From a virus, in IMG/VR virus record IMGVR_UViG_3300031758_000442, positions 1-28,049 of that record: 28,049 nt of DNA. One strand, given 5' to 3'. Both the position numbers and the translations under genes were made by a program. Positions 3,739-18,754 of this stretch are shown here, one piece after another (the first letter of the stretch is position 1; each line of letters opens with the position of its first letter). Below the pieces are notes generated by a model, which was given only the letters and a program-made list of their open reading frames with translations, made no database searches and was not told where the DNA came from.

Positions 3739-4635
3739 TTAGATATCAAACATTGCGAATTCCTCTCGATTCCTTTTAGATCGTAAGATTCTAGACTTTG
3801 CGACCTTTATTCCTTTATTAAAGATCTGGCGTGCGCACTCTGGGGTACGTTCCAATTTACGACCTATTTCTGAAAAGGAGTGGTTGTGGCCGTCTACTAG
3901 TCCTAGCCTCATGCTGATGACAAACCTTTGTGTCTGAGTCAGTGATTCTAGGATTATGTTGACCATTTCAGCTCGATCAGACCTTTCGACTAGGGCAGAA
4001 GTGCTTTCGCTGTTGCTTAGCCAATTGATCGGGCTGTATGAGTCCTCGTCACTGGTGTCTTCCAACGCAGTCGATCTCGAGTCAAGCTCTAGTGTCTTTT
4101 GTACCTTGTCAGCAGACATCTCACGAGGAGTTCCAGCAAGAGCCTCTTCGATCTCAAGCGGGGTAGGGTATCGCCCTTCTCGTTGGATGAACGAGGATTC
4201 TATCCTACGTATCGCAGCCAGATCGGTGACGATGTTTTGAGGAAGCTTAACTGTCCTCATGTTTTGGTTAAGGTGCAGAAGGATCTCCTTACGGATGTGC
4301 CATACTGCATAAGAAATAAACTTGAAGCCTCGAGTTGGATCAAAGGTGCGTGCAGCATACACAAGGCCAATGTTGCCTTGTGAAATCATTTCAGCTAGCG
4401 GTTGCGAGTTGCCTGAGTACTGTTTGGCAACTGACACCACAAACCTAAGGTTAGCATTGACCAATTTAGTTATGGCCTTCTCATCACCAGCTTGCGCTTC
4501 CATTCCGACTCGAAATTCTTCTTCCATCGTCAACATCGGTTGACGTTCCACATCATGGAAATAACGATTGATGTTATCATCACGCATCGTTATTCTGTCC
4601 TGTGCGATTTTTAATTGTCTTAGATTCTTCTTCAT
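3739..4635 (-). CDS. RNA polymerase sigma-70 factor, RpoD-like
   Basis: With the start at 4635 the protein has 298 residues and begins MKKNLRQLKI, the typical start of Bacteroidota RpoD proteins; the frame extends upstream to 4695, but those residues are AT-rich and unlike the family. Region 2 (about 57-121) is clear: NLRFVVSVAKQY, then QGNIGLVYAARTFD and GFKFISYAVWHIRKEIL, the part that melts and reads the -10 element. Region 3 follows (about 125-190), and region 4 (about 222-285) has a helix-turn-helix at FSEIGRKLERTPECARQIF. It should redirect host RNA polymerase to phage promoters, perhaps the GATAAATAA boxes. It is far closer to host primary sigma than T4 gp55 is. It is monocistronic and divergent from the 4808 gene. 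Confidence 0.95.
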   Translation of the reverse strand: MKKNLRQLKIAQDRITMRDDNINRYFHDVERQPMLTMEEEFRVGMEAQAGDEKAITKLVNANLRFVVSVAKQYSGNSQPLAEMISQGNIGLVYAARTFDPTRGFKFISYAVWHIRKEILLHLNQNMRTVKLPQNIVTDLAAIRRIESSFIQREGRYPTPLEIEEALAGTPREMSADKVQKTLELDSRSTALEDTSDEDSYSPINWLSNSESTSALVERSDRAEMVNIILESLTQTQRFVISMRLGLVDGHNHSFSEIGRKLERTPECARQIFNKGIKVAKSRILRSKRNREEFAMFDI

Positions 4636-4807
4636 ATCTGTGTTAATTGTACTACTAAAAAACAAAAGTTTTAAACAATTTGGGTTTATTTTCACCCCAG
4701 GGTAATTTTTTTAATTAAATTTTTGCGAAATTTCCAAACAACACTAAAAATTTTCAAAATAAAAAAAAATTCTAGTTTCGCTGATAAATAATAAAAAAAG
4801 TAAAATT
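4636..4807. promoter_or_regulatory. Divergent intergenic region between sigma factor and 550-residue protein
   Basis: About 170 bases of very AT-rich DNA between two divergent starts. The rightward side carries the GATAAATAA box at 4783-4791. On the leftward side AACTTTTG (minus strand, about 4664-4671) is one base from the Bacteroidota -7 consensus TAnnTTTG and could drive the sigma gene early; this is weak evidence. Confidence 0.4.
4783..4791 (+). promoter_or_regulatory. Late-promoter-like box (GATAAATAA)
   Basis: GATAAATAA ends 16 bases before the ATG at 4808. The same box stands 18 and 17 bases before the starts at 7104 and 8822, so spacing is nearly fixed. By analogy with T4 late promoters the transcript would begin a few bases downstream and have a leader of roughly ten bases with no Shine-Dalgarno. 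Confidence 0.65.
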
Positions 4808-6460
4808 ATGTCATACTTATTAAATTACAAACAATGGAGATCGATTCATGAATCGATGTTGTTTGAAGCAAAAGACTCAAGTCTAACACAGACCGGCATT
4901 GGCTCAGGATTAGTTGCAGTCCAAAAAGGAAATCAGATTTATGATATCTCAGACGCTGGCGTTACCCCTGCTTGGGGATGGTTAGATCCGGCGAATTCTG
5001 CACTTTTCTCAGAGACCTTAAATAAGACAATAGGATTTGGTGGAATCCCACAACTTTACATATATGCAGGACTCGGTTATGCAGGAGGTTCAAGAGCTAG
5101 TAAAACAAAGGATGTAGACTCTTTAATGGACATATTTAAGTTGTTAATATGCGGAATAGGTAGATATCACAAAATCGAAAATTTTGGAGACCAGATGGTC
5201 GAAGGAACTGACGGTAAGACTGCTCAGGTGAGAGTCGAAGAATTGGGACTTACTGTGACTCAAGACGGCGAGATACAAATGTTTGGACCAGACGCCAATA
5301 GAATTAACACTAGCGCAAAAGTAACAGATAACGGTAGTCTATTAGATTCAACAAAACCTGTGAATGCTAGTAACAAGGCAGACGTGCTTAACTATATAAA
5401 CACGTTTAACCTTATCAACTTTGCGGAAGGTAACAGTCAACAATACTCCGATATTGCTGCATGTCTTGACGATAAGAAGGTTCTTCAACTTGGACTAGGA
5501 GCCAAAGGAGTAAGTGTTAGTGAAACTGTTCTTTATCTTTATTCTCCAAAAACAGCATCAGTTACTGCAGCAGGCCGAGAAGAACAAGTTACCACTACTC
5601 AAGGTAAGGCAGGTTTAAATGACGCGGTCAACTTAGCATTTACTCCAAACGAGTTTGCTACTGCTACTACTGATAAAGGAGAAAAACTCCCAGTAAACGG
5701 TTCACACCCAATGATTCAAGACGTTGCTAACAAGATATTGGCTGCCCTTGGTGAAGATCAACAGATCACAAAAATGACCTTAGTTTCTGGTGCAAGCCCG
5801 GACTGGCAAGGTAAACCTGTTCCTGAATCAAACGGTTCTGGTGACCCAAGTGGAGGAAAACTTAGCGACGCTACTTTCAAGACAGAGAAGACTGCTCTTG
5901 GAAACCAATGGCTAGCTTGGAGAAGAGGAAAACAGTTTTCTGATGCTTTGATCGAATTACTAGGAGAGAAAAGAATCGCAGCGAACGCACTAACGATCGA
6001 ATGGAAAGTAAGCGCAACTGGTGCAGAGGGAGGAAGAAACTTATCTTACGTAGTTGGTTCTACTGGAGTAGCACCTAAAGATAAGACTGAAACTGTATTC
6101 GCAGGGGCAAGTTACAAAGTAGGAGGCGGAGTAAATACTTACTATCGCTATAAGTTTACTTGGAACTATGCAAACATCGCTCAGTCTGAAGGTGGATGGC
6201 TTAAAAAAATATTCGGAAAACAGACTAAATCTAGTGGTGATGTTGAAGTCGGAAACACTATCATTTATAGAGAAATGGTTTCTGATGGACAAGGCGGATT
6301 CGAAATTAGCAAAAAGAAAACTAGAGAGGCAGAAGTAATTAGACTACAGGATGGAGTTCCAGTAGTATTGTCAGCGACTGGAAAAGAATTAATAATTAAA
6401 TCAGATCGCTTCGTTTCTGGAGGGACTCAAGTAAAGGCCGGAACAACTAAGATAGAATAA
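4808..6460 (+). CDS. Putative internal head protein with OmpA-like segment (paralog A)
   Basis: A 550-residue protein starting MSYLLNYKQWRSIHE, a capsid-targeting-like peptide followed by a second possible cleavage site, MLFE|A. It is a paralog of the gene at 7104, of the same length: both share a central block from about residue 355 (LSDATFKTEKTALGNQWLAW) and a C-terminal block ending in SGG-KAGT. The central block, preceded by a strand ending in a Ser/Gly-rich loop with DW, looks like the OmpA C-terminal pattern (strand, loop, N..LS..RA..V...L), which binds peptidoglycan; this is tentative. A late-type box lies 16 bases upstream and a bidirectional terminator follows. It is probably packaged in the head. 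Confidence 0.85.
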   Translation: MSYLLNYKQWRSIHESMLFEAKDSSLTQTGIGSGLVAVQKGNQIYDISDAGVTPAWGWLDPANSALFSETLNKTIGFGGIPQLYIYAGLGYAGGSRASKTKDVDSLMDIFKLLICGIGRYHKIENFGDQMVEGTDGKTAQVRVEELGLTVTQDGEIQMFGPDANRINTSAKVTDNGSLLDSTKPVNASNKADVLNYINTFNLINFAEGNSQQYSDIAACLDDKKVLQLGLGAKGVSVSETVLYLYSPKTASVTAAGREEQVTTTQGKAGLNDAVNLAFTPNEFATATTDKGEKLPVNGSHPMIQDVANKILAALGEDQQITKMTLVSGASPDWQGKPVPESNGSGDPSGGKLSDATFKTEKTALGNQWLAWRRGKQFSDALIELLGEKRIAANALTIEWKVSATGAEGGRNLSYVVGSTGVAPKDKTETVFAGASYKVGGGVNTYYRYKFTWNYANIAQSEGGWLKKIFGKQTKSSGDVEVGNTIIYREMVSDGQGGFEISKKKTREAEVIRLQDGVPVVLSATGKELIIKSDRFVSGGTQVKAGTTKIE

Positions 6461-7076: not shown

Positions 7077-7085
7077 GATAAATAA
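7077..7085 (+). promoter_or_regulatory. Late-promoter-like box (GATAAATAA)
   Basis: An exact repeat of the box at 4783, including flanking CT before and TAA after it. It ends 18 bases before the ATG at 7104. Confidence 0.65.
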
Positions 7086-7103: not shown

Positions 7104-8756
7104 ATGAAGAACTTAAAATTAGTCTCTTATCAAGAGTGGTCTAACATATATGAATCGTTAAATAAAGACTCTAAAGCGACTCAAAGGGTCCTCGAATCTA
7201 AGTTAACTGGAATATATGAAGCAGTTCTCACTCAAACTAACGTCACTTTTCCTGAAGGTCTAGTTACAGATAAGCATACTAGAAAGACGTTTGACGGTCT
7301 CGATTCTTTCGGCAATGACTTGGAAATTACAATGGCCGATAATCAAACTGTTTATGAGACTGCAATACGAACAGTTGATTCAGTCCCAGGCGCTACTTTC
7401 TTGTATGCAGGTGCAATCACAAACGCTGCTAAGAACGTAGCACTAAAGCTCAACGTATTTAAGTTGATTATAGCTGGGATAGGAAATTCAGTAGGAATTG
7501 AGAAATTAGCTGATGAACTTATAAAGGACCCAACGCTAATGGAGAATCTAAAATTGAAAGCTACTTTAGATAAGACCTTCAAGACATTTGGTAAAGACGG
7601 CCTGATGTATACTGACGCTAAACTCAGTCCAGCAGGAGTAGCATCGTCTACTGGAACTGACAAAAATTTAACTAAACCCTCAATTGTTTGTGGAATACTT
7701 AATACTCAAAACTTGGTGAATTGGGTAAACGGGTCGTTTAGTCAAGTAATAGACTTATCACCAAAAATCGGTGGAAGCGGAGTAGGTGAATCGTTTTATG
7801 GCTTTGGTTCGTCAGTAGCGGACGACTCTCCTGAAGTAGACAGTGCAACTCTTTACTTATTCACATCAGCTAGCTCAGGTGAAGGGTCTGCCGAGCCAGT
7901 TGCTCAACCGACATCTGCTCCTTCTAGAGGAGTATCCATACCTTGGGCACAGCTCGATTTCACTTATGATGAGGATGGAACATTGATAGACGAGCGCTAT
8001 TCTGAAATAAAGGAACTCATTAAACAGATAGTTAGCGAATTAGCGCCTAACGAAGTTATCACTAAGTTACAATTGACATCTGTTGTGAATCCTATGTGGA
8101 ATGGACAGACTACTTCAGGAAACGGTACAGGCGAGCCTGTTGGCCAAAACAGTGTTAAGTTGACTGACGCTACTTTCAAAACAGATAAGACTGCTTTAGG
8201 AAATCAATGGTTGGCTTGGAAAAGAGGTAGCGAAATTGCAACTGAATTATATGAGTCATTAGGAGGTAAAATACAAAAGAATGCCATAGAAGTAATGTGG
8301 AAGATAGGTCAAACTTCTGCAACTATTCCAAACATAACTTATTCAATTGTCGCTAAAACAACTTCTCCATCAAACATAGCAAACACTCCAGCCATCGATA
8401 ACGCTCTAGGCACACAGGCAGTTAGCGCAAACGCAAATATTCCTATTTCTAGATATAAGATAACGTTCGACGGTAGCGTGATAGCTAAGGCACTTCCAGG
8501 TAAATTGAAGAAAGTCATAGGAATAGGTGCATCGACAATCGCTTATGAAGATTTATCTGCTGGTGATTCCATAAAATATAAAGGGATGACTGATGGTAAA
8601 ATAGATGATAAATCAGTCAAAAAAGGTAAAGTACTAAGCATAAGTGACGGTAAAGTAACTTTAGAATCAGAGACTGGAAACAAGCTCACAATATCTAAAA
8701 ACAGATTCATATCCGGTGGCAAAGAAACTAAAGCAGGTACAGTAATGCAAGAATAA
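7104..8756 (+). CDS. Putative internal head protein with OmpA-like segment (paralog B)
   Basis: A 550-residue paralog of the 4808 product. It begins MKNLKLVSYQEWSNIYE; VSYQEW...YE is the closest match in the window to the T4 sequence KTYQEFIAE, and a second site (GIYE|A) occurs near residue 39. The paralogs share the block SDATFKT/LTDATFKT followed by TALGNQWLAW (residue 363 here, 362 in the other), a strand reading TLVSGASPDW or QLTSVVNPMW before it, and a C-terminal module ending in RFISGG-KAGT. Middle regions have diverged. The central block resembles an OmpA-like peptidoglycan-binding domain (tentative). Tandem duplication with a divergent CAP gene between the copies suggests an old event. 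It is probably a late virion protein. Confidence 0.85.
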   Translation: MKNLKLVSYQEWSNIYESLNKDSKATQRVLESKLTGIYEAVLTQTNVTFPEGLVTDKHTRKTFDGLDSFGNDLEITMADNQTVYETAIRTVDSVPGATFLYAGAITNAAKNVALKLNVFKLIIAGIGNSVGIEKLADELIKDPTLMENLKLKATLDKTFKTFGKDGLMYTDAKLSPAGVASSTGTDKNLTKPSIVCGILNTQNLVNWVNGSFSQVIDLSPKIGGSGVGESFYGFGSSVADDSPEVDSATLYLFTSASSGEGSAEPVAQPTSAPSRGVSIPWAQLDFTYDEDGTLIDERYSEIKELIKQIVSELAPNEVITKLQLTSVVNPMWNGQTTSGNGTGEPVGQNSVKLTDATFKTDKTALGNQWLAWKRGSEIATELYESLGGKIQKNAIEVMWKIGQTSATIPNITYSIVAKTTSPSNIANTPAIDNALGTQAVSANANIPISRYKITFDGSVIAKALPGKLKKVIGIGASTIAYEDLSAGDSIKYKGMTDGKIDDKSVKKGKVLSISDGKVTLESETGNKLTISKNRFISGGKETKAGTVMQE

Positions 8757-8795: not shown

Positions 8796-8804
8796 GATAA
8801 ATAA
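8796..8804 (+). promoter_or_regulatory. Late-promoter-like box (GATAAATAA)
   Basis: GATAAATAA ends 17 bases before the ATG at 8822, matching the spacing of the two preceding plus-strand boxes. Its position supports ATG 8822 over the in-frame TTG at 8816. Confidence 0.65.
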
Positions 8805-10954: not shown

Positions 10955-11325
10955 TGAACGAACACGTAAAAGGCTTCAATGATTTCTTAAATGAGGCTGC
11001 CTACATAGACCAGCAAGGAGAACTTCAAGGTCTAAACATGGGAGACGTTAGAGTGATGGAAGAGGCAGATACCTTAAGAACCTTTTTAGAGGATGAAGGT
11101 GCACGTCGAGTGACGATTGAGGCTGATGAAGACATAGTTAAATTGCGATTTGAATACGCAATGAGACCTTTGGCCATTGAGCTTGATCTACAACAAGACA
11201 TCACGACCCTATTTGAAGAAAGAGGAGAGAGGGAACCCCTTATCATGTTACAGCTCGCTTCTGATGAATTCTTCGATTTACTGGCAGCAAAGGGCTTACG
11301 TGGAATAGTCGACGGTAGACTTTAA
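10954..11325 (+). CDS. Putative small internal head protein
   Basis: A 123-residue acidic protein beginning MNEHVKGFNDFLNEAAYID. GFNDFLNE|A is a good match to the T4 capsid-targeting pattern and predicts cleavage after Glu-14. The remainder is a compact alpha/beta protein without a recognised family. Its ATG shares a base with the stop of the 710-residue gene (TAATG), so the two are co-expressed. Its 3' end overlaps the convergent 11322 gene by four bases. Confidence 0.8.
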   Translation: MNEHVKGFNDFLNEAAYIDQQGELQGLNMGDVRVMEEADTLRTFLEDEGARRVTIEADEDIVKLRFEYAMRPLAIELDLQQDITTLFEERGEREPLIMLQLASDEFFDLLAAKGLRGIVDGRL

Positions 11326-11555
11326 TCCTTACTTAAGAACCTTTTCATTAGCTTCAGCATCTTAAAGGAGATCTCTCCGCTTATCTGCATGCATTCCCTT
11401 TCGTCGTATGTCTGGCCAGAGTTACCCAGGATGATTCTCTTCATCACCTTGACTCTATTTGAAAAATCATATACGATCTTCTCACGAACCTCCTTGACAC
11501 TATCCCTGGTAGTACCAGTCTTAGCGTAATGTATGAACTCGTCTCCAGGTTTCAT
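11322..11555 (-). CDS. Unrecognised 77-residue basic protein
   Basis: Starts MKPGDEFIHYAKTGTTRDSV, is helical and rich in Lys/Arg toward the C-terminus (KMLKLMKRFLSKD). No family is recognised. A TATAAATAA box ends 17 bases upstream of the ATG, which supports the gene as real and late-expressed. It lies directly downstream of the tRNA-array terminator. Confidence 0.7.
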   Translation of the reverse strand: MKPGDEFIHYAKTGTTRDSVKEVREKIVYDFSNRVKVMKRIILGNSGQTYDERECMQISGEISFKMLKLMKRFLSKD

Positions 11556-11572: not shown

Positions 11573-11581
11573 TTATTTATA
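11573..11581 (-). promoter_or_regulatory. Late-promoter-like box (TATAAATAA)
   Basis: The minus strand reads TATAAATAA, containing the exact T4 late -10 octamer TATAAATA, 17 bases before the 11555 start. Confidence 0.65.
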
Positions 11582-11989: not shown

Positions 11990-12424
11990 TCAGATCTTTG
12001 TTATTGCATTGAACGCCTCGATCTCTTCCTGTAAAGCTTCGATCTCAGCCTCCCACTGCTTGACTTGCTTGTCCTTTGCCACGAGGTTCATGAAGGCAAC
12101 GTATTCTATTTGTGTGCCATCATTTGTGTAACGATCGCGGTGCATGCCTTCTTTCACATCAACGTTTCTCATTCGACTTGATAGATTCTTCAGCTCTCCG
12201 AGTCTAAAGATCTTTTCAGCGATCGGTGCATTTGCAAGCTGGATCTTTGTCTTTAGATCGATTAACTGTTTTGTCAGGTCAAGCCACGCATTAAATGCCT
12301 CTTCCGCGTTGTAAGGTGTTGACATACCGGCCTCGTGTGAGTTAAACGCTAGGAAGCGAGTATACGCCTCATCTACCTGCTTAACTAACTTTTTCTTTGT
12401 TTTTAGAGCTTTTGTTAAGTTCAT
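11990..12424 (-). CDS. DIP1984-like coiled-coil protein
   Basis: A 144-residue, mostly helical protein. The pattern MNLTKALKTKKKLVKQVDEAY, then a helix with LTKQLIDLKTKIQLANAP, then RLGELKNLSSRMRNV, resembles the DIP1984 family (once called septicolysin), in which a leading A.....R..L motif is followed by a long helical hairpin; function is unknown. It lies within the tRNA array, between the CAT and Arg tRNAs, with no promoter box of the late type. Family assignment is by eye. Confidence 0.75.
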   Translation of the reverse strand: MNLTKALKTKKKLVKQVDEAYTRFLAFNSHEAGMSTPYNAEEAFNAWLDLTKQLIDLKTKIQLANAPIAEKIFRLGELKNLSSRMRNVDVKEGMHRDRYTNDGTQIEYVAFMNLVAKDKQVKQWEAEIEALQEEIEAFNAITKI

Positions 12425-12545: not shown

Positions 12546-13190
12546 TTACTTAGAGTCAGAATTTAATTTTCTTCCTCTATTCCATCCAATGTCAATATAC
12601 TCAATTAACTTGTCATTTTTAATTTTTATGGAATTTTTTCCATCATTTATCCAACATGTCCCATATTGAGAATTTTTTTCTCCAGATTGAGAGATCGAAT
12701 TTGCTTTACTTATCTTTCGCTTTGTTTCAAGAGAGTGTTTCTTATTTAACCACGGTTGCTTACCTTTTACTGATTTACTGACTGCTTCACAAAACTTTTT
12801 TCTATAATCTACGTCATTTTGTAACCTATCATGTAATATTTTATTAGTAGCAAGCCGACCTGCTGTATGAAATTTCTTAGCATGTTCTTCTCCACTAAGA
12901 CCTCCTCCTCCACCGAGTTGCAAGTTCATACACATTTCATCTTTAAGCAAATTTTCATTTACTATCTCTTTTTCTCTCAATTTCAAAGAACTTCGGTCAG
13001 GCAACCATTCCAATATTTCGATTGTGTGATGTACTTTTCCGTATTTGTTTAAGGATCTTTTTAGAACCTTTCCACTTCCGAAATACCCATCCTCTAAATT
13101 AGAAGTCGAATGCATTCCGATGTAGTATTTTTCACTTATCAAACAAGTTACTTTGTAGATATAGTGGTACCTATATTCTTTTCTTGGCAT
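12546..13190 (-). CDS. GIY-YIG homing endonuclease (copy 1)
   Basis: A 214-residue protein with an N-terminal GIY-YIG nuclease domain: YHYIYKVT and KYYIGMHST (residues 8-28) are the two core strands, followed by GYFGSG and the helix LREKEIVNE with the metal-binding Glu. The C-terminal part (residues ~140-214) has KHSLETKRKISKAN, a NUMOD3-like DNA-binding repeat, and a terminal SQYGTCWI module common in phage homing enzymes. It is inserted between the Arg and initiator tRNAs and is a close paralog of the gene at 17169. Its leader forms a hairpin containing a late-type box, the arrangement used in T4 to silence such genes early. Confidence 0.93.
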   Translation of the reverse strand: MPRKEYRYHYIYKVTCLISEKYYIGMHSTSNLEDGYFGSGKVLKRSLNKYGKVHHTIEILEWLPDRSSLKLREKEIVNENLLKDEMCMNLQLGGGGGLSGEEHAKKFHTAGRLATNKILHDRLQNDVDYRKKFCEAVSKSVKGKQPWLNKKHSLETKRKISKANSISQSGEKNSQYGTCWINDGKNSIKIKNDKLIEYIDIGWNRGRKLNSDSK

Positions 13191-13193
13191 AAT

Positions 13194-13230
13194 GTACCTT
13201 CGTTTTGATTATTTATCTCGACGAAGGTAC
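13194..13230 (-). promoter_or_regulatory. Leader hairpin with internal late box, homing endonuclease copy 1
   Basis: Arms 13194-13203 and 13221-13230 pair over ten bases; the loop holds GATAAATAA (13209-13217, minus strand), 18 bases before the ATG. The stem ends three bases from the start codon. Read-through transcripts would hide the translation start, while a transcript begun from the loop would lack the 5' arm. The second copy at 17808-17844 has a compensatory G-C to A-T change. Confidence 0.8.
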
Positions 13231-13244
13231 AAAAATACCTGGGG

Positions 13245-13318
13245 TAGCGGGGGCCGGACTCGAACCGACGACCTCAAGGTTATGAGCCTTGCGAGCTACC
13301 AACTGCTACCACCCCGCA
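13245..13318 (-). tRNA. Initiator tRNA-fMet(CAT)
   Basis: The sequence is strikingly like bacterial initiator tRNA (GCGGGGTGG...GTAGCTCG...GGTCGTCGGTTC...CCGGCCCCCGC). Position 1 (T) and position 72 (T) cannot pair, the hallmark that marks initiators for formylation. The anticodon stem has two rather than the usual three G-C pairs next to the loop. CCA is not encoded. Confidence 0.92.
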
Positions 13319-13325
13319 CTGTTTG

Positions 13326-13398
13326 TATTCCGTACGGGAATCGAACCCGTGCCTCTGCCGTGAAAGGGCAGCGTGTTAGACCGCTTCACTAACGGAAC
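13326..13398 (-). tRNA. tRNA-Glu(TTC)
   Basis: Acceptor GTTCCGT/ACGGAAT, loop CTTTCAC, T-arm CGGGTTCGATTCCCG. Discriminator A; CCA not encoded. Confidence 0.95.
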
Positions 13399-13405
13399 GT
13401 ATGAG

Positions 13406-13479
13406 CGGTCCTGAAGGGATTTGAACCCTCGATCTCCGCCGTGACAGGGCGGCGTCCACTCCAACTGGACCGCAGGACC
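13406..13479 (-). tRNA. tRNA-Asp(GTC)
   Basis: Acceptor GGTCCTG/CAGGACC, anticodon GTC, discriminator G as expected for Asp. CCA not encoded. Confidence 0.95.
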
Positions 13480-13746
13480 AAAATTCGTCTAACGAGACTT
13501 GTTAGACTGGATTTTAACGGGTTTCTCTGACTGTTTCGAGAACCATTTCTCTATGGCGACAATACCCCATTAGATACTTTTCATTAGTGTCTTACCACAT
13601 AAAAACCTGTCAACTCACTACGTCGGTGGGGCAGAGCGTCGCTCCCATTAATCCGCCACGATACCCCATTAAGGTCGAGGATTTTTTTACCACCATCGCT
13701 TTTTTACAGAATGCGACCAATCTTTCCGAGCGTCTCTTTCTCGTAG
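13480..13746. other. Structured spacer without a gene
   Basis: No supported coding sequence. A 7-pair hairpin with a 7-base loop (GTCTAAC at 13487, GTTAGAC at 13501) lies immediately upstream of tRNA-Asp on the transcribed strand, and a second imperfect hairpin (GGTTTCTC/GAGAACC) follows. The 11-mer ATACCCCATTA occurs twice, near 13563 and 13661. Confidence 0.5.
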
Positions 13747-13843
13747 TAGTCAGGACAGGACTCGAACCTGTATGAGCCACTTCAATTACCTTGTAGGCTC
13801 TCCACTACGGTGCTTGTAGCGTCTACCATTCCGCCACCTGACT
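13747..13843 (-). tRNA. Aberrant Leu-like tRNA (anticodon unclear)
   Basis: Acceptor AGTCAGG/CCTGACT is perfect and the T-arm is normal. The D-arm (TGGCGGAAT-GGTAGACGC) is of the leucine type, and an extra arm with a 5-pair stem (GAGCC/GGCTC) and a 17-base loop is present. The anticodon arm is odd: stem GCTAC/GTAGT encloses AAGCACC, which lacks the universal T33 and would place GCA (Cys) as the anticodon. It may be a decaying tRNA, an intermediate in tRNA remodelling, or a tRNA-like RNA with another role. Confidence 0.55.
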
Positions 13844-13848
13844 ATTTG

Positions 13849-13928
13849 GGTAGGTTAATGAGTGATTTCCCCTACCTCTTTTTACTCTGTATCAGACTTC
13901 ATTACTGAAACATCAACCTAAGTCACTC
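13849..13928. other. Inter-tRNA spacer with possible pseudoknot
   Basis: GGTAGG (13849) pairs with CCTACC (13871); within that loop GAGTGATTT (13860) can pair over nine bases with AAGTCACTC (13920). The two helices interlock like an H-type pseudoknot. The single wobble favours the plus-strand RNA, opposite to the tRNAs. Chance is not excluded. Confidence 0.35.
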
Positions 13929-13936
13929 TGTGTTTG

Positions 13937-14010
13937 TAGTCAAGACAGGACTCGAACCTGCAATCTCACCCACATACTGTAAGCACGCGTTACCAATTAG
14001 CCACCTGACT
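13937..14010 (-). tRNA. Aberrant tRNA, apparent anticodon TAC (Val) but weak structure
   Basis: It shares acceptor AGTCAGG and the T-arm with the aberrant tRNA at 13747, so the two are duplicates. The loop CTTACAG gives TAC, but the stem GCGTG/TATGT contains three G-T pairs, the D-arm is short (TGGCTAATTGGTAAC), and the variable region is about ten bases. A regular tRNA-Val(TAC) exists at 16944, so this one may be redundant or degenerating. Confidence 0.6.
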
Positions 14011-14111
14011 ATTTGAGGTTAAGAACTCCTCTGTGTTGTAAGCATATTGTTACTTTTAACAGCTTCATTTTTTATCAATATTTCCTTTCTCAAGGGAACA
14101 ACACAATGTTG

Positions 14112-14250
14112 TTGATAGTGTTGGAGTACCCATCTCGCTCCAATCTTAACTGCTTAATCGTAGTTTTACGAGGCCCCGGCAGAAAGGGTGCTGAATTCCT
14201 GATCCACTCTGGATTGTCGACATCCATTGAGTGGGGAAAACCACTATCAA
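14112..14250. ncRNA. Candidate structured RNA, cloverleaf-like, between tRNAs
   Basis: A perfect 9-pair closing stem (14112-14120 with 14242-14250) surrounds three hairpins: 14121-14126/14138-14143, 14159-14162/14167-14170, and a long one, 14204-14214/14222-14234, with an 11-pair stem and 7-base loop. The resulting four-way layout recalls an enlarged tRNA. No tRNA T-loop or anticodon is present. Strand cannot be decided from perfect pairs; transcription from the array would be leftward. This is inference from base pairing alone. Confidence 0.4.
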
Positions 14251-14253
14251 TCG

Positions 14254-14326
14254 TGGAGTAGAAGGGACTCGAACCCATATCCTCTTCCTTGCAAAGGAAG
14301 CGCTCAACCAATTGAGCTACGACCCC
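14254..14326 (-). tRNA. tRNA-Ala(TGC)
   Basis: Acceptor GGGGTCG/CTACTCC with the G3-T70 wobble that identifies alanine tRNA and one mismatch at pair 6-67. Loop TTTGCAA. CCA not encoded. Confidence 0.93.
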
Positions 14327-14331
14327 AAAAT

Positions 14332-14541
14332 AAAACAAAATTAAGTCTACCAAGCGCATTAACTTGGTCAACGATTTGATCAATGGTTTGTTCCCCATTG
14401 CCTGATACGTGGCCACGCAGAGCAGGGTCTCCTACATGACATTCCGGGGCATTATTACTCTCAGTAAAGGTTGCGATCCTGTGAGAGCCGGAATCTCTTT
14501 CAACGGTGCTAGTCCGTCCTATGTTAGACTAATTTTGTTTT
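14332..14541. ncRNA. Candidate structured RNA closed by a 17-pair stem
   Basis: Bases 14332-14349 pair with 14525-14541 (17 pairs, one bulged A). Inside are hairpins 14350-14354/14363-14367, 14381-14386/14395-14400, a nested element 14441-14447/14488-14494 with 14458-14463/14482-14487, and 14503-14506/14514-14517. A 10-base palindrome lies at 14408-14417. It fills the whole gap between Ala and Gly tRNAs, and no open frame explains it. Function is unknown; it could be a non-coding RNA, a processing scaffold, or the remains of a mobile element. Confidence 0.45.
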
Positions 14542-14542
14542 G

Positions 14543-14615
14543 AGCGGGAGAAGGGACTCGAACCCTCAACAACCAGCTTGGAAGGCTGGAGCTCTACCAA
14601 TTGAGCTACTCCCGC
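14543..14615 (-). tRNA. tRNA-Gly(TCC)
   Basis: Acceptor GCGGGAG/CTCCCGC, loop CTTCCAA, discriminator T as usual for glycine. Confidence 0.95.
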
Positions 14616-14834
14616 AGTTGTGACTACTCCCTGGGAAGTTTCGTCACGTTTACGTGAATGGGGTGATCAGACCCACTAACATCACGAGCATAGGTTTTTA
14701 ACGCCAAAACCAGTACTAAGAAACGTTAGTTTTTATCGCCCAAAACTAAATAAACGGCTTGACGTCTTGTGGACTCTCCTTTAAGTGTGCTCCACATCAA
14801 TTCTCAAGCTGAACCCTACTGCTTACACTCCCAG
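14616..14834. other. Structured spacer without a gene
   Basis: No coding sequence is supported. Several hairpins are visible: TCACG/CGTGA near 14644, AGTTTT/AAAACT near 14727, and a nested pair GCTTGA/TCAAGC enclosing TGTGGA/TCCACA between about 14756 and 14810. Confidence 0.4.
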
Positions 14835-14908
14835 TACTTCCAGTAGGACTCGAACCTACAAGATCATGATCCTAAGTCATGCGCGTATACCAATTCCGCC
14901 ATGGAAGC
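14835..14908 (-). tRNA. tRNA-Leu(TAG) with short variable loop
   Basis: Acceptor GCTTCCA/TGGAAGT, leucine-type D-arm (TGGCGGAATTGGTATACGCG), anticodon stem CATGA/TCATG and loop CTTAGGA. The variable region is only five bases (ATCTT), whereas bacterial tRNA-Leu normally has a long variable arm. Confidence 0.9.
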
Positions 14909-14995
14909 ATTTTTTTTTTGCCAGTATGTCAAAGAACTACCTAACTAATATACTCAGTTTTTAGCTAGGTTTTAAACTTTTTTCACATTTTTTTG

Positions 14996-15067
14996 AGGTT
15001 AGGGCGAGATTCGAACTCGCATACCAAGGTTTTGCAGACCCGGACCTTACCTATCGGACACCCAACC
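14996..15067 (-). tRNA. tRNA-Cys(GCA)
   Basis: Acceptor GGTTGGG/CCTAACC, loop CTGCAAA, discriminator T as expected for cysteine. The anticodon stem has one mismatch. Confidence 0.92.
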
Positions 15068-15069
15068 CT

Positions 15070-15522
15070 CTAACGACAGTGGTGATCGGCAGCCTTTGTC
15101 GCAACCTGGTTATCGGGTTTGATGTTAACCTTATAACCTAGGCTTTGAGCCCAACCGACGCTTGCCTGAACCAGAGCATTGCTGTAATGCTTTTCGCTAG
15201 GATTCAAGTCAAAGTCTATTTCTAGCTTTACCTTTATCTTAGCAGTTAGCGCTTCAGCAACCTCCATGGAGTTTTCAGTCTCCTTCCACAGACGAGTCCA
15301 CCTGTCCTTTATCTTTGTCACCTTAGTCGTGCTGTGCACGTAGTGGACTCCTCTATTGCCGTATCTATAGGCAATCACCGTGCTGTAGACAGTATGCCTA
15401 CGATGGTTTTGTGAGTCCGTCCCGACGTGTATCTCAACATAAGGGCATTCCTTTAAGATCGACAGAGTGTGTTTTACAACGTCGATCGATTGGCCGTCAA
15501 CTTTTCTAAACACTCTGTTCAT
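15070..15522 (-). CDS. RNase H-like protein of the DUF458/YkuK type
   Basis: The chosen ATG at 15522 (MNRVFRKVDG) gives 150 residues; a longer frame to 15564 would run into tRNA-Phe. The motif VEIHVGTDSQNHR is the signature first strand of the DUF458 (YkuK) family, an RNase H-like fold with an acidic active site. It is followed by the strands of STVIAYRYGNRGVHYVHST and a helix with ETENSMEVAEAL. Family members lack a settled function; some are near sporulation or nucleic-acid genes. It is embedded in the tRNA array, three bases from tRNA-Cys, so a role in RNA handling is an attractive but unproven idea. Confidence 0.85.
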   Translation of the reverse strand: MNRVFRKVDGQSIDVVKHTLSILKECPYVEIHVGTDSQNHRRHTVYSTVIAYRYGNRGVHYVHSTTKVTKIKDRWTRLWKETENSMEVAEALTAKIKVKLEIDFDLNPSEKHYSNALVQASVGWAQSLGYKVNIKPDNQVATKAADHHCR

Positions 15523-15539
15523 GATCTTTAATTTTTTTG

Positions 15540-15612
15540 TGGAGCCGATGGGTATCGAACCCATTCCTCTGGATTTTCAGTCCAGCGCAATCACCTGATC
15601 TGCCACAGCTCC
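15540..15612 (-). tRNA. tRNA-Phe(GAA)
   Basis: Acceptor GGAGCTG/CGGCTCC, anticodon stem CTGGA/TCCAG, loop CTGAAAA, discriminator A. Confidence 0.95.
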
Positions 15613-15617
15613 TTTAG

Positions 15618-15688
15618 CGCGCCCCCAAGGTTTCGAACCCTGACCGATGGGTTTGGAATCCATCATGCTACCGTTACACCAGCGACGC
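15618..15688 (-). tRNA. tRNA-Trp(CCA)
   Basis: Acceptor GCGTCGC/GGGGCGC with one G-G mismatch, loop TTCCAAA, discriminator G as in bacterial Trp tRNA. It is slightly short, with a mismatch at the base of the loop. Confidence 0.9.
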
Positions 15689-15734
15689 AATTGTGTCCGA
15701 CCTAGCTCGGAACCGACATCGGATTTTTTAATGG

Positions 15735-15807
15735 TACCCTCAAAGCGATTCGAACGCATATCTCCTGATTCGTAGTCAAGTGTTCTATCCAATTGAACTA
15801 TGTGGGC
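15735..15807 (-). tRNA. tRNA-Arg(ACG)
   Basis: Acceptor GCCCACA/TGAGGGT with one mismatch, loop CTACGAA, and CCA encoded just beyond. The anticodon A34 would need host TadA editing to inosine to read CGT, CGC and CGA. Confidence 0.92.
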
Positions 15808-15818
15808 AAGTTTTTAAG

Positions 15819-15892
15819 TATCCCTGAAGGGAGTCGAACCCTTAGCGTACGGAGCTTAAATCCGTTGTGTTTACCAATTTCACCACAGGGAC
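15819..15892 (-). tRNA. tRNA-Leu(TAA) with short variable loop
   Basis: Acceptor GTCCCTG/CAGGGAT, D-arm TGGTGAAATTGGTAAACAC, anticodon stem ACGGA/TCCGT, loop TTTAAGC. The variable loop has five bases (ACGCT), like the TAG isoacceptor and unlike normal bacterial tRNA-Leu. Confidence 0.9.
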
Positions 15893-15898
15893 TTGTTG

Positions 15899-15972
15899 GG
15901 TAACTAATGGGAATCGAACCCATGGCACAAGGAACCACAATCCTTTGCTCTACCTACTGAGCTATAGCTACC
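15899..15972 (-). tRNA. tRNA-His(GTG)
   Basis: Eight-pair acceptor including the extra G(-1)-C73 pair that identifies histidine tRNA. Loop TTGTGGT. Confidence 0.95.
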
Positions 15973-15977
15973 ATTTA

Positions 15978-16124
15978 TCACTTAGAGTTTATGAGCTTAA
16001 TCAAACGTCTGATCGTCCTCTTAAACTTTATTCTAGCGATGAGCTCGTCTAGCCCCATCTCATTGGAGGGCCGAGGAATCTTAGAGCTTTTCAGTCTTCC
16101 TTCTATTATGATCTTTTCATTCAT
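15978..16124 (-). CDS. Small basic protein, 48 residues, between tRNAs
   Basis: The frame starts MNEKIIIEGRLKSSKIPRPS and ends KLINSK, with 14 Lys/Arg and a predicted amphipathic C-terminal helix (RIKFKRTIRRLIKLI). It fills the gap between the His and Met tRNAs almost exactly. I know no family. Evidence is the intact frame, sensible composition and placement; there is no late-type box. Confidence 0.55.
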   Translation of the reverse strand: MNEKIIIEGRLKSSKIPRPSNEMGLDELIARIKFKRTIRRLIKLINSK

Positions 16125-16140
16125 TCTTCTGTTTTTTTAG

Positions 16141-16210
16141 TACCGTCGACAGGGTTCGAACCTGTTTAAGCTGCCTTATGAGAGCTGCTTCTTTTCCACT
16201 AAGCAACGGC
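16141..16210 (-). tRNA. tRNA-Met(CAT), elongator
   Basis: Acceptor GCCGTTG/CGACGGT, loop CTCATAA, stem CAGCT/GGCAG with one A-A mismatch, short D-arm. With the initiator and the Ile2-like CAT tRNAs placed elsewhere, elongator Met is the likeliest identity. Confidence 0.85.
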
Positions 16211-16214
16211 GTGT

Positions 16215-16282
16215 GTTCCATGCTCACCACGTTAAGGCTGGCCGTGAGCGATGCTACCTACGATCGACTTTCGTCATGGAAC
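16215..16282. other. Structured spacer, GTTCCATG/CATGGAAC stem
   Basis: An 8-pair closing stem (16215-16222 with 16275-16282) encloses a CTCAC/GTGAG hairpin (16223, 16244) and a small GAC/GTC hairpin. It fills the gap between Met and Ser tRNAs. Confidence 0.4.
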
Positions 16283-16285
16283 TAG

Positions 16286-16369
16286 CGGAAAACAGAGGAG
16301 TCGAACCTCATACCCTAAAGTACATCTCGCTTAGCAGGCGGACCCTCTCACCGTCGAGGATTGCTTTCC
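16286..16369 (-). tRNA. tRNA-Ser(GCT)
   Basis: Acceptor GGAAAGC/GTTTTCC, loop CTGCTAA, a variable arm of about 15 bases with its own stem (TACT/GGTA), discriminator G. So serine tRNAs here keep the long arm that the Leu tRNAs lack. Confidence 0.93.
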
Positions 16370-16374
16370 ATAGA

Positions 16375-16410
16375 GCGTAGTGGGACTGCAGTTCCCCGAG
16401 GCTCCTACGC
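16375..16410. other. Hairpin in tRNA spacer
   Basis: GCGTAG pairs with CTACGC around an inner GGGA...TCCC helix, between the Ser and Ile tRNAs. Confidence 0.4.
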
Positions 16411-16424
16411 AAGTTACTCCTCTT

Positions 16425-16501
16425 TGGTGCTTATGGCAGGTATCGAACCTACTACCTCCGACGTATCAGGTCGGCGCTCTGACCAATTGAGCTACATAAG
16501 C
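16425..16501 (-). tRNA. tRNA-Ile(GAT)
   Basis: Acceptor GCTTATG/CATAAGC, stem CCGAC/GTCGG, loop CTGATAC, discriminator A, encoded CCA. Confidence 0.95.
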
Positions 16502-16557
16502 TGGTTACAGGACCCGCACCCTGCACTGAACTTGTACTTCGTTCTATTAAGCGTTTG

Positions 16558-16631
16558 CGGATCAGATAGGGCTCGAACCTACTATCTTCCGCTTAACAGG
16601 CGGTAGCTTATACCACTTAAGCTTCTGATCC
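16558..16631 (-). tRNA. tRNA-Asn(GTT)
   Basis: Acceptor GGATCAG/CTGATCC, stem CCGC/GCGG, loop CTGTTAA, discriminator G. Confidence 0.95.
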
Positions 16632-16640
16632 ATTCTTTAG

Positions 16641-16713
16641 TACAGACGACGAGACTCGAACTCGTAACCTCGATCGTATAAGGATCTTGCTCTCACCATT
16701 GAGCTACGTCTGT
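16641..16713 (-). tRNA. tRNA-Ile(TAT)
   Basis: Acceptor ACAGACG/CGTCTGT, loop CTTATAC. The TAT anticodon reads ATA directly and is uncommon in bacteria, which normally use a lysidine-modified CAT tRNA. The array appears to carry both types. Confidence 0.9.
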
Positions 16714-16718
16714 GACTG

Positions 16719-16801
16719 TGGAAGCGATAGGACTCGAACCTACACGCCCTTACGGGAACAGATTTACAGTCTGCTGAGCCAACCAATTGCTCAACGCTTC
16801 C
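16719..16801 (-). tRNA. tRNA-Tyr(GTA)
   Basis: Acceptor GGAAGCG/CGCTTCC, stem CAGA/TCTG, loop CTGTAAA, long variable arm with hairpin CCCGTAAGGG, as in bacterial tRNA-Tyr. Confidence 0.95.
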
Positions 16802-16846
16802 AAATTAAGGAAAGAGGAAGATGGTTGCGTGGACATCCTCTTTTAC

Positions 16847-16935
16847 GATCGGCTTTACTTAGGTGTATGTCTCCCAACTCCGATGACACCAACCGACATA
16901 CACTCTCGTGTTATGGGTATCATCATTCCCCGATC
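16847..16935. other. Structured spacer, nested and possibly interlocked stems
   Basis: GATCGG/CCGATC (16847, 16930) encloses a 9-pair stem GTGTATGTC/GACATACAC (16863, 16895). The loop element GATGACACC (16882) can pair with GGTATCATC (16916), with a wobble allowed only on the minus strand, the tRNA strand. It lies between the Tyr and Val tRNAs. Confidence 0.4.
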
Positions 16936-16943
16936 AACCTTAG

Positions 16944-17017
16944 TGCACCCTGATGGATTCGAACCACCGACCAGTTGCATGTAAAACAACAGCTCTTCCT
17001 CTGAGCTAAAGGTGCGA
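16944..17017 (-). tRNA. tRNA-Val(TAC)
   Basis: Acceptor GCACCTT/AGGGTGC, stem GTTGT/GCAAC, loop TTTACAT, discriminator A. Confidence 0.93.
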
Positions 17018-17168
17018 GTTGCAGGATATCGCTTAACCTGCTGACGATGTGCACTGTTCGTCTTCGATGGCAACCATCACGATTTTTGTTACAATAAACT
17101 AATAGTGTTTATTGGATTGGTGAAGAACTGCAATAGAGTAAGATTTTTGCATTCTTCCCCATGTATCT

Positions 17169-17804
17169 TTATTTTATTTTTCTCCCAAGTCTCCATCCTT
17201 CTGGAATTAAAGAACCCTTATGAATTTTAATATTTTCTTTTTCATTGGTAATCCAACATGTTCCATATTGAGAATTGGAAGATCCCTTTTGTTTATTTTT
17301 AATTGAGTTCTTAATTTTTTCAATTGTTTCCAAACTATGTGAATGTCCAGTAAATCCACTCGAGTTTAAAATTGGAGTAAGGTGAATCTTTCGATATTCA
17401 TCATTTTCCCATAATTTTGAAACCGTTTCACTCATGGTTTTAGAAAACTTTGCAGTTTTCCTAGAAATACTCGCAGCATCCATAAATTTCTTTTTATGTT
17501 CATCTGATGAAAAACCTCCACCTCCGCCAAGGGTTAAATTCATACATAATGTATCATTCAATAACTCTTCATTCACTATCGCAGCTTCTCTCAATTTCAA
17601 AGAATTTCGATCAAGTAACCATTCAAGTATCTCTACTGAATGGTTTTCTTTTCCGTGTTTATTGATAGACAGCCATAGTCTTCTGCCGCTTCCAATATAT
17701 CCGTCTTCTAAATTAGAAGTCGAATGCATCCCGATATAATATCTCCCAGTAACATTACAAGTTGTCTTGTAAATGTAGTGATGGGTGTGTTGTTTTCTTG
17801 CCAT
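17169..17804 (-). CDS. GIY-YIG homing endonuclease (copy 2)
   Basis: A 211-residue paralog of the 12546 gene. The nuclease core reads HHYIYKTT and RYYIGMHST, then GYIGSG and LREAAIVNE. The linker and DNA-binding part has HSLETIEKIKNS (NUMOD3-like) and a terminal SQYGTCWI module. N-terminal halves are nearly the same in the two copies; the central DNA-recognition parts differ, which suggests different target sites. It sits between the Val and Lys tRNAs. Its leader duplicates that of copy 1, with a paired compensatory substitution. Confidence 0.93.
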   Translation of the reverse strand: MARKQHTHHYIYKTTCNVTGRYYIGMHSTSNLEDGYIGSGRRLWLSINKHGKENHSVEILEWLLDRNSLKLREAAIVNEELLNDTLCMNLTLGGGGGFSSDEHKKKFMDAASISRKTAKFSKTMSETVSKLWENDEYRKIHLTPILNSSGFTGHSHSLETIEKIKNSIKNKQKGSSNSQYGTCWITNEKENIKIHKGSLIPEGWRLGRKIK

Positions 17805-17807
17805 AAT

Positions 17808-17844
17808 GTACCTTCATTTTGATTATTTATCTCGATGAAGGTAC
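17808..17844 (-). promoter_or_regulatory. Leader hairpin with internal late box, homing endonuclease copy 2
   Basis: Arms 17808-17817 and 17835-17844 pair over ten bases; the loop carries GATAAATAA (17823-17831, minus strand), 18 bases before the ATG at 17804. Relative to copy 1, the pair 13202-13222 (G-C) is A-T here (17816-17836), so pairing is preserved. Confidence 0.8.
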
Positions 17845-17857
17845 AAAATAGTCATAG

Positions 17858-17929
17858 TGATCCCGCCGAGAGTCGAACTCGATTTCATAGATTAAAAGTC
17901 TATTACATCACCACCAATGTTTCGGGATC
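17858..17929 (-). tRNA. tRNA-Lys(TTT)
   Basis: Acceptor GATCCCG/CGGGATC, stem ATAGA/TCTAT, loop CTTTTAA, discriminator A. Confidence 0.94.
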
Positions 17930-18342: not shown

Positions 18343-18414
18343 AGCTCTGTGTAGGAATCGAACCCACTTATCTTGAGTACAAATCAAGTACATCACCTTT
18401 TATGTTTACAGAGC
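18343..18414 (-). tRNA. tRNA-Thr(TGT)
   Basis: Acceptor GCTCTGT/ACAGAGC, stem CTTGA/TCAAG, loop TTTGTAC. It is the first tRNA of the array in the direction of transcription. Confidence 0.93.
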
Positions 18415-18424
18415 CTATAAAAGC

Positions 18425-18632: not shown

Positions 18633-18641
18633 TTATTTATA
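18633..18641 (-). promoter_or_regulatory. Late-promoter-like box (TATAAATAA)
   Basis: TATAAATAA on the minus strand, followed by ACAAGAA and the ATG of the 47-residue gene. The spacing of seven bases is shorter than the usual 16-18. Confidence 0.5.
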
Positions 18642-18754
18642 TCTTAAAAATGGTGTTTTTCTAAGATTAGTGGTGCAAATATACAAACTTTTTTAGAACT
18701 AGAAAAACCTTTTTAATTTTTTTTATGAAAATTTTCTAAGTATTTGGTTTTTAG

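Follow-up and report, generated by a model that had tools for sequence, protein, structure and literature searches.

In phage T4, I-TevI, the homing endonuclease encoded in the td intron, is held back by a hairpin on early and middle transcripts that blocks its translation, and the late transcript is too short to fold, as has been shown experimentally (PMC2988022). A late promoter and an RNA structure have been predicted in the literature for T4 segB (PMC2988022), and start-hiding RNA structures with late promoters upstream of or within them are described for mobE of Aeromonas phage Aeh1 and for gene e (lysozyme) of T4 (PMC2988022, PMC3014915). Here, a related arrangement is described for two GIY-YIG homing endonuclease genes in the IMG/VR virus record IMGVR_UViG_3300031758_000442, of which the whole analysed stretch of 28,049 nucleotides (nt) is referred to as the window. 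Each gene is preceded by a leader hairpin with a late-promoter-type box in its loop, and this leader very probably serves as a late-only expression switch for the endonuclease. The features concerned are the following:

12546-13190, minus strand: GIY-YIG homing endonuclease gene, copy 1 (214 amino acids, SegB-like, with NUMOD3 motifs; from Pfam, PHROG 314 and identity to segB)
17169-17804, minus strand: GIY-YIG homing endonuclease gene, copy 2 (211 amino acids; from PHROG 314 and identity to copy 1)
13193-13231, minus strand: leader hairpin of copy 1, 11 base pairs with a 17-nt loop (sequence, fold, covariation, shuffle test)
17807-17845, minus strand: leader hairpin of copy 2, 11 base pairs with a 17-nt loop (sequence, fold, covariation, shuffle test)
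13209-13217, minus strand: late-promoter-type box GATAAATAA in the loop of copy 1 (sequence, enrichment), with a transcription start predicted from distances near 13204
17823-17831, minus strand: late-promoter-type box GATAAATAA in the loop of copy 2 (sequence, enrichment), with a transcription start predicted from distances near 17818
13243-13318, minus strand: tRNA-Met gene, immediately upstream of hairpin 1 (ARAGORN)
17857-17929, minus strand: tRNA-Lys gene, immediately upstream of hairpin 2 (ARAGORN)

On the minus strand, the copy 1 leader reads TGTACCTTCGT-CGAGATAAATAATCAAA-ACGAAGGTACA-TT-ATG (arms 13193-13203 and 13221-13231) and that of copy 2 reads TGTACCTTCAT ... ATGAAGGTACA-TT-ATG (arms 17807-17817 and 17835-17845), giving the joint consensus TGTACCTTCRT-CGAGATAAATAATCAAA-AYGAAGGTACA-TT-ATG. 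A sequence-only reading of the window had placed a hairpin with the box in its loop before both genes, which holds, but it counted ten pairs ending three bases from the ATG; an eleventh pair (U-A) lengthens the stem, which ends two bases short of the start codon. Its observation that one G-C pair of copy 1 (G13202-C13222) is A-T in copy 2 (A17816-T17836) is borne out by direct reading, coordinates included. A single covarying pair between two related copies is weak evidence alone, and the relatives add much more. The long leaders fold at -22.7 kcal/mol for copy 1 (z -6.4) and -20.7 kcal/mol for copy 2 (z -5.5); for neither copy did any of 200 shuffles fold as well, and in both folds the start codon is also base-paired, in an outer helix. 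Folding of the predicted late RNAs of both copies shows that the hairpin is absent from them. An intrinsic terminator was rejected because there is no T run past the stem on either strand.

Two IMG/VR scans gave 82 related loci, nearly all with the 3' end of a tRNA directly upstream and a hairpin-like leader, and together with the window copies and L001 these were reduced to 56 distinct leaders, 54 of them from outside the window; of the 56, 50 have a recognisable box. Three box classes were distinguished, A (ATAAATA), B (ATATATA) and C (TATTTAT), and counted upstream of open reading frames (ORFs) in 26 contigs and a cultured Flavobacterium phage. The alignment of related leaders that had been proposed as a check for covariation gave a positive result: among eight class-A leaders, four pairs are altered on both sides (T-A/C-G; T-A/A-T/G-U; C-G/G-C; A-T/T-A/G-C), with a covariation score of 0.346, compared with 0.089 in shuffles and no more than 0.043 in slid registers. 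In a separate test, only the 32 nt located 5' of the box were dinucleotide-shuffled and start closure was compared; the native arm closes the start better than the shuffled arms in 42 of the 50 boxed leaders (p<=0.05), 31 of them at the floor of the test. The 3' arm lies in the leader before the ATG in the clade of the window, across the AUG in most class-B leaders, and over codons 2-6 in several class-C leaders, and the AUG is base-paired in 46 of 55 enclosing helices. The position of the clamp drifts across relatives and its closing effect is retained, and the arms vary almost freely provided that pairing stays.

The same comparisons bear on the alternative that the inverted repeat is a DNA operator, with a dimeric protein, perhaps the endonuclease itself, binding the arms and repressing the enclosed late promoter. 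The box is indeed flanked by palindromic arms, and I-TevI represses its own late promoter through an overlapping operator (PMC2988022). However, the arms vary in sequence, length, bulges and position, and the shift of the 3' arm from the leader to the AUG and to codons 2-6 suits RNA folding better than a fixed half-site. Furthermore, under Watson-Crick-only scoring GU mismatches outnumber AC mismatches 27:12 (p 0.012, a count inflated by related leaders), which favours an RNA structure over a DNA palindrome. An operator is an unlikely explanation of the arms, and autorepression could coexist with the RNA switch.

The loop box behaves as the late-type promoter box of each phage. In the contigs that were examined first, de novo 8-mer enrichment upstream of ORFs ranked the loop motif first or close to it, and in most of the 26 contigs the leader's own class is the one most enriched upstream of ORFs. 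Observed vs expected counts are 7/0.2 in the window, 18/0.6 in G001 and 21/0.8 in G007 for class A; 13/0.5 in G009, 10/0.6 in G014 and 18/0.8 in G015 for class B; and 38/3.8 in G003, 33/2.3 in G005 and 10/0.5 in G026 for class C. In class-B and class-C phages, the portal, prohead protease and sheath homologues bear the box class of their own phage, as does terL in class-C phages, and the genes for polymerase, ribonucleotide reductase, helicase, recA and thyA are mostly without it. Flavobacterium phage immuto has a class C box before its portal, terminase and sheath genes and one tail-fibre gene. In the manner of T4 late promoters, TATAAATA-like boxes are thus enriched upstream of ORFs in classes A, B and C and are found on structural genes in B and C. 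Box class goes with the clades of the endonuclease tree, on which class A arose twice, and the loop box is presumably used by the late RNA polymerase of the phage.

The class C box, (G)TATTTAT(A) on the sense strand, is almost the reverse complement of TATAAATA, the box of T4; it is found in slices of G003, G005, G011, G020, G021 and G026 (L118-L125, L132-L137, L161-L164, L178-L182, L187) and of immuto (L194-L196). The class B motif ATATATA is the box of another related T4-like phage group. Among literature titles, whose coverage is incomplete, neither late promoters of the TATTTAT type nor leaderless late messenger RNA (mRNA) in phages had a clear precedent.

In T4 late promoters the box precedes the start by about one helical turn (PMC2988020), and on this model transcription was assumed to begin about 5 nt past the box. 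Distances from box to ATG fall into two groups, a sharp peak at 4 nt (B, C) or 5 nt (A) and a main mode at ~14-28 nt, separated by a gap at ~8-13 nt; the sharp peak supports the assumed start and suggests many leaderless late mRNAs. The short peak includes about ten endonuclease loci (L007, L009, L015, L025, L038, L051, L053, L058, L072, L074) whose hairpin lies over the AUG or the first codons. For the 50 endonuclease leaders, the cost of opening positions -12 to +6 falls from 14.6 kcal/mol on the long transcript to 2.0 kcal/mol on the predicted late one, vs 4.6 to 2.2 kcal/mol for 358 other boxed genes (p 8e-26 for the difference).

The motif GAAGG is present within the 3' arm, and the ORFs of the window show no enrichment of Shine-Dalgarno (SD) sites (rate of 0.15 vs 0.12 in a control stretch). 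The related contigs tested show none either, with the exceptions of G002 (0.54) and G012 (0.44). Because the phage group, these two apart, has no SD signal, the hidden element is probably the start region, often the AUG, and not an SD site. The sequence-only reading had assigned the DNA to a Bacteroidota phage. The best match of its thymidylate synthase is to a T4-like Flavobacterium phage (52%), which together with the lack of an SD signal makes a Bacteroidota host likely, though not proven.

Here it is proposed that RNA initiated upstream, for example by read-through of the tRNA array, would hold both arms and is predicted to fold into a stable hairpin that closes the start region. The loop of this hairpin carries the phage's own late-type promoter box, with presumed promoter activity, and in a transcript begun about 5 nt past the box the entire 5' arm would be missing and the start region accessible. 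The array would presumably be read through early, with synthesis of the endonuclease blocked at translation until late infection. The arms can vary so long as they stay paired, and the box changes with the promoter class of its phage. In these SD-less phages the clamp would work by structure over the start region, extending in many relatives to the AUG or the first codons, and initiation on the shortest late mRNAs would presumably be leaderless.

Several observations weigh against a late-only switch of this kind. Eight of the 50 boxed leaders miss p<=0.05 for the 5' arm; that of L024 is clearly decayed (p 0.98), and the others are L059, L035, L009, L015, L054, L069 and L073. Unpaired arms in related copies, which the sequence-only reading had taken as counting against it, are thus found in a minority. 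Six leaders have no clear box, and the relatives share ancestry, so that the per-leader tests are not independent. The tracking of promoter class is broken by G018, with ties in G013 and G010, and as box class largely follows the endonuclease clades, few independent switches lie behind it. For class A the link to late genes is weak, with structural-gene homologues hardly found near the clade of the window. In the records tested, gp23 is without its own phage's class box, for which it was dropped as a late-promoter marker and replaced by portal, protease, sheath and terminase. The late sigma factor was not pinned down: sigma-like proteins occur in 7 of 27 records, in a search that did not include gp55 by its own family.

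The arrangement extends beyond the GIY-YIG family. Of ten scanned proteins from the boxed controls with the strongest hairpin effect, eight match endonuclease families, mostly HNH; this list was selected by effect, and the test was repeated on genes from domain searches. Among 16 HNH-domain genes with a box, the median effect is 5.0 kcal/mol and 38% reach at least 6, compared to 1.3 kcal/mol and 7% among 338 background genes (p 1.3e-4), and 30 boxed GIY-YIG genes, some SegB-like, have a median of 7.5. Since roughly half of the HNH genes lack a box and one HNH match (G011:25289) belongs to a very large protein other than a homing endonuclease, the box-in-hairpin leader on HNH genes is a tendency and not a rule. 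HNH endonucleases with this leader include L169:7751-8605, L169:9736-10680, L187:10534-11076, L187:6853-7599, L129:5211-5642 (minus strand) and L153:7514-8140. Strong box-in-hairpin leaders are also found on genes without an endonuclease match, at L117:5170-8172 (minus strand), which encodes a 1000-residue protein of unknown function, L170:554-1684 and L138:1973-2359 (minus strand).

The occurrence of the same arrangement at unrelated HNH endonucleases favours repeated origin over descent from a SegB-like leader. The chances are about even that unrelated GIY-YIG and HNH families in SD-less T4-like phages have arrived more than once at one modular late gate, with the current late box in the loop, drifting arms and a clamp on the start region; at about ten GIY-YIG loci the clamp would cover the AUG or the first codons of a late mRNA predicted to be leaderless.

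The HNH genes also bear on a further alternative, in which the hairpin is a processing or stability element of the upstream tRNA (a 3' trailer or an RNase III/E site) with the box there by chance. In nearly all relatives the hairpin does follow directly on the 3' end of a tRNA, and RNase E processes T4 segB mRNA (PMC2988022). However, several HNH endonucleases have the arrangement without a tRNA directly upstream, the two other tRNA-flanked ORFs checked in the array of the window, at 12424 and 15531, have neither hairpin nor box, and the hairpin overlaps the start codon and carries the box class of its own phage; a tRNA element is accordingly a very unlikely account. That the window copies merely share a recently duplicated leader with a functionless structure, as the few differing leader positions between proteins 53% identical might suggest, is hardly credible given the paired double changes and the persistence of the structure in more than 40 diverged leaders.

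Both window genes belong to the SegB-type GIY-YIG homing endonucleases by PHROG 314 (homing endonuclease; 9e-32 for copy 1, 1.8e-35 for copy 2). Copy 1 also matches NUMOD3 (1.8e-9) and GIY-YIG (5.7e-4, under the curated cut-off) in Pfam and is about 40% identical to the segB gene product of phage PP01; copy 2 shares 40% identity with T4 SegB, whose gene likewise lies in a tRNA cluster. The window contains 27 tRNA genes (ARAGORN), most of them in a minus-strand array with both endonuclease genes, and a tRNA gene is immediately 5' of each. At the head of the array, a tRNA-like stretch (18343-18418, minus strand) with the T-loop-like ATCGAACCC was not called by ARAGORN, and within the array there is a gene for an RNase H-like protein (15070-15531, minus strand; Pfam RNaseH_like, 8.7e-23), which has neither box nor hairpin. 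Between the tRNA 3' end and each hairpin there is a T-run followed by G (TTTTG / TTTTTG; 13230-13237 and 17844-17850, minus strand), which is kept in nearly all relatives and has TATTTTGAG at the equivalent site of T4 segB; this conserved T-run may mark the edge of a mobile cassette. A host-type promoter at the TTTTTG was rejected, as copy 1 lacks a matching upstream element. The Bacteroidota -7 promoter element is TAnnTTTG, and a match to it before the array is a plausible candidate source of the long early transcripts, which would read through the array. This match and the remaining boxes of the window are:

18676-18683, minus strand: TATATTTG, match to the Bacteroidota -7 element (pattern match only; intergenic, before the tRNA/endonuclease array)
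18633-18641, minus strand: TATAAATAA late-type box just before the tRNA/endonuclease array (sequence match)
11573-11581, minus strand: TATAAATAA box ahead of ORF 11322-11555
4783-4791, plus strand: GATAAATAA box, 16 nt ahead of the ATG of ORF 4808-6460
7077-7085, plus strand: GATAAATAA box, 18 nt ahead of the ATG of ORF 7104-8756
8796-8804, plus strand: GATAAATAA box, 17 nt ahead of the ATG at 8822

Additionally, the window encodes a sigma-70-type factor with regions 1.2, 2 and 4 (PHROG 351; 3739-4665, minus strand), a candidate phage sigma that is not conserved across the related contigs. PHROG 351 was rejected as the common late sigma for its presence in only 7 of the 27 records.

If the switch operates as proposed, the T4-style delay of homing endonucleases would be a wide design rule and not a quirk of T4. 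The leaders offer dozens of natural variants for the study of a structure-only block of initiation without an SD site, and their pattern could be used for finding and annotating homing endonucleases. Late-promoter boxes of three classes, TATTTAT among them, also came to light, both in T4-like phages that are uncultured and in a Flavobacterium phage that is in culture.

Compared with the known systems, the window genes share with T4 segB a homologous protein (about 40%), a location just after a tRNA gene, a box of the late type and a stem that closes off the start region. In contrast to the window, where the box is in the loop, the T4 segB box CATAAATA lies within the 5' arm and pairs with ATATTTATG, including the start codon (stem GAACATAAATACTC.../...GAGATATTTATGTTC). 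I-TevI is similar in having a start-hiding hairpin on long transcripts and a late promoter that yields a short one, and differs in being intron-encoded and in the box ATAAATA forming part of T4's 5' arm, where it pairs with GAGGTATTTAT (stem ATAAATACTTC.../GAGGTATTTAT). The host of T4 uses SD sites, whereas the phage of the window has no SD signal. Aeh1 mobE and T4 gene e encode an HNH endonuclease and lysozyme outside a tRNA array, and the likeness to them is drawn from the published descriptions. As in I-TevI and SegB, the start region is predicted to be closed on upstream-initiated transcripts (fold, shuffles, covariation), and the late promoter, at the start site deduced above, is placed to drop the 5' arm; unlike in them, the late box is not itself the 5' arm. 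The T4-like control logic put forward by the sequence-only reading is thus sustained across ~50 loci by covariation, promoter tracking, late-gene context and thermodynamics, and it is the geometry that departs from T4. The control logic is of the known I-TevI/SegB type in a different layout, with the box in the loop and dedicated arms, a cleaner arrangement than that of T4 in which promoter and lock would be free to evolve separately, and this loop-box geometry points to a device that was probably rebuilt or evolved independently.

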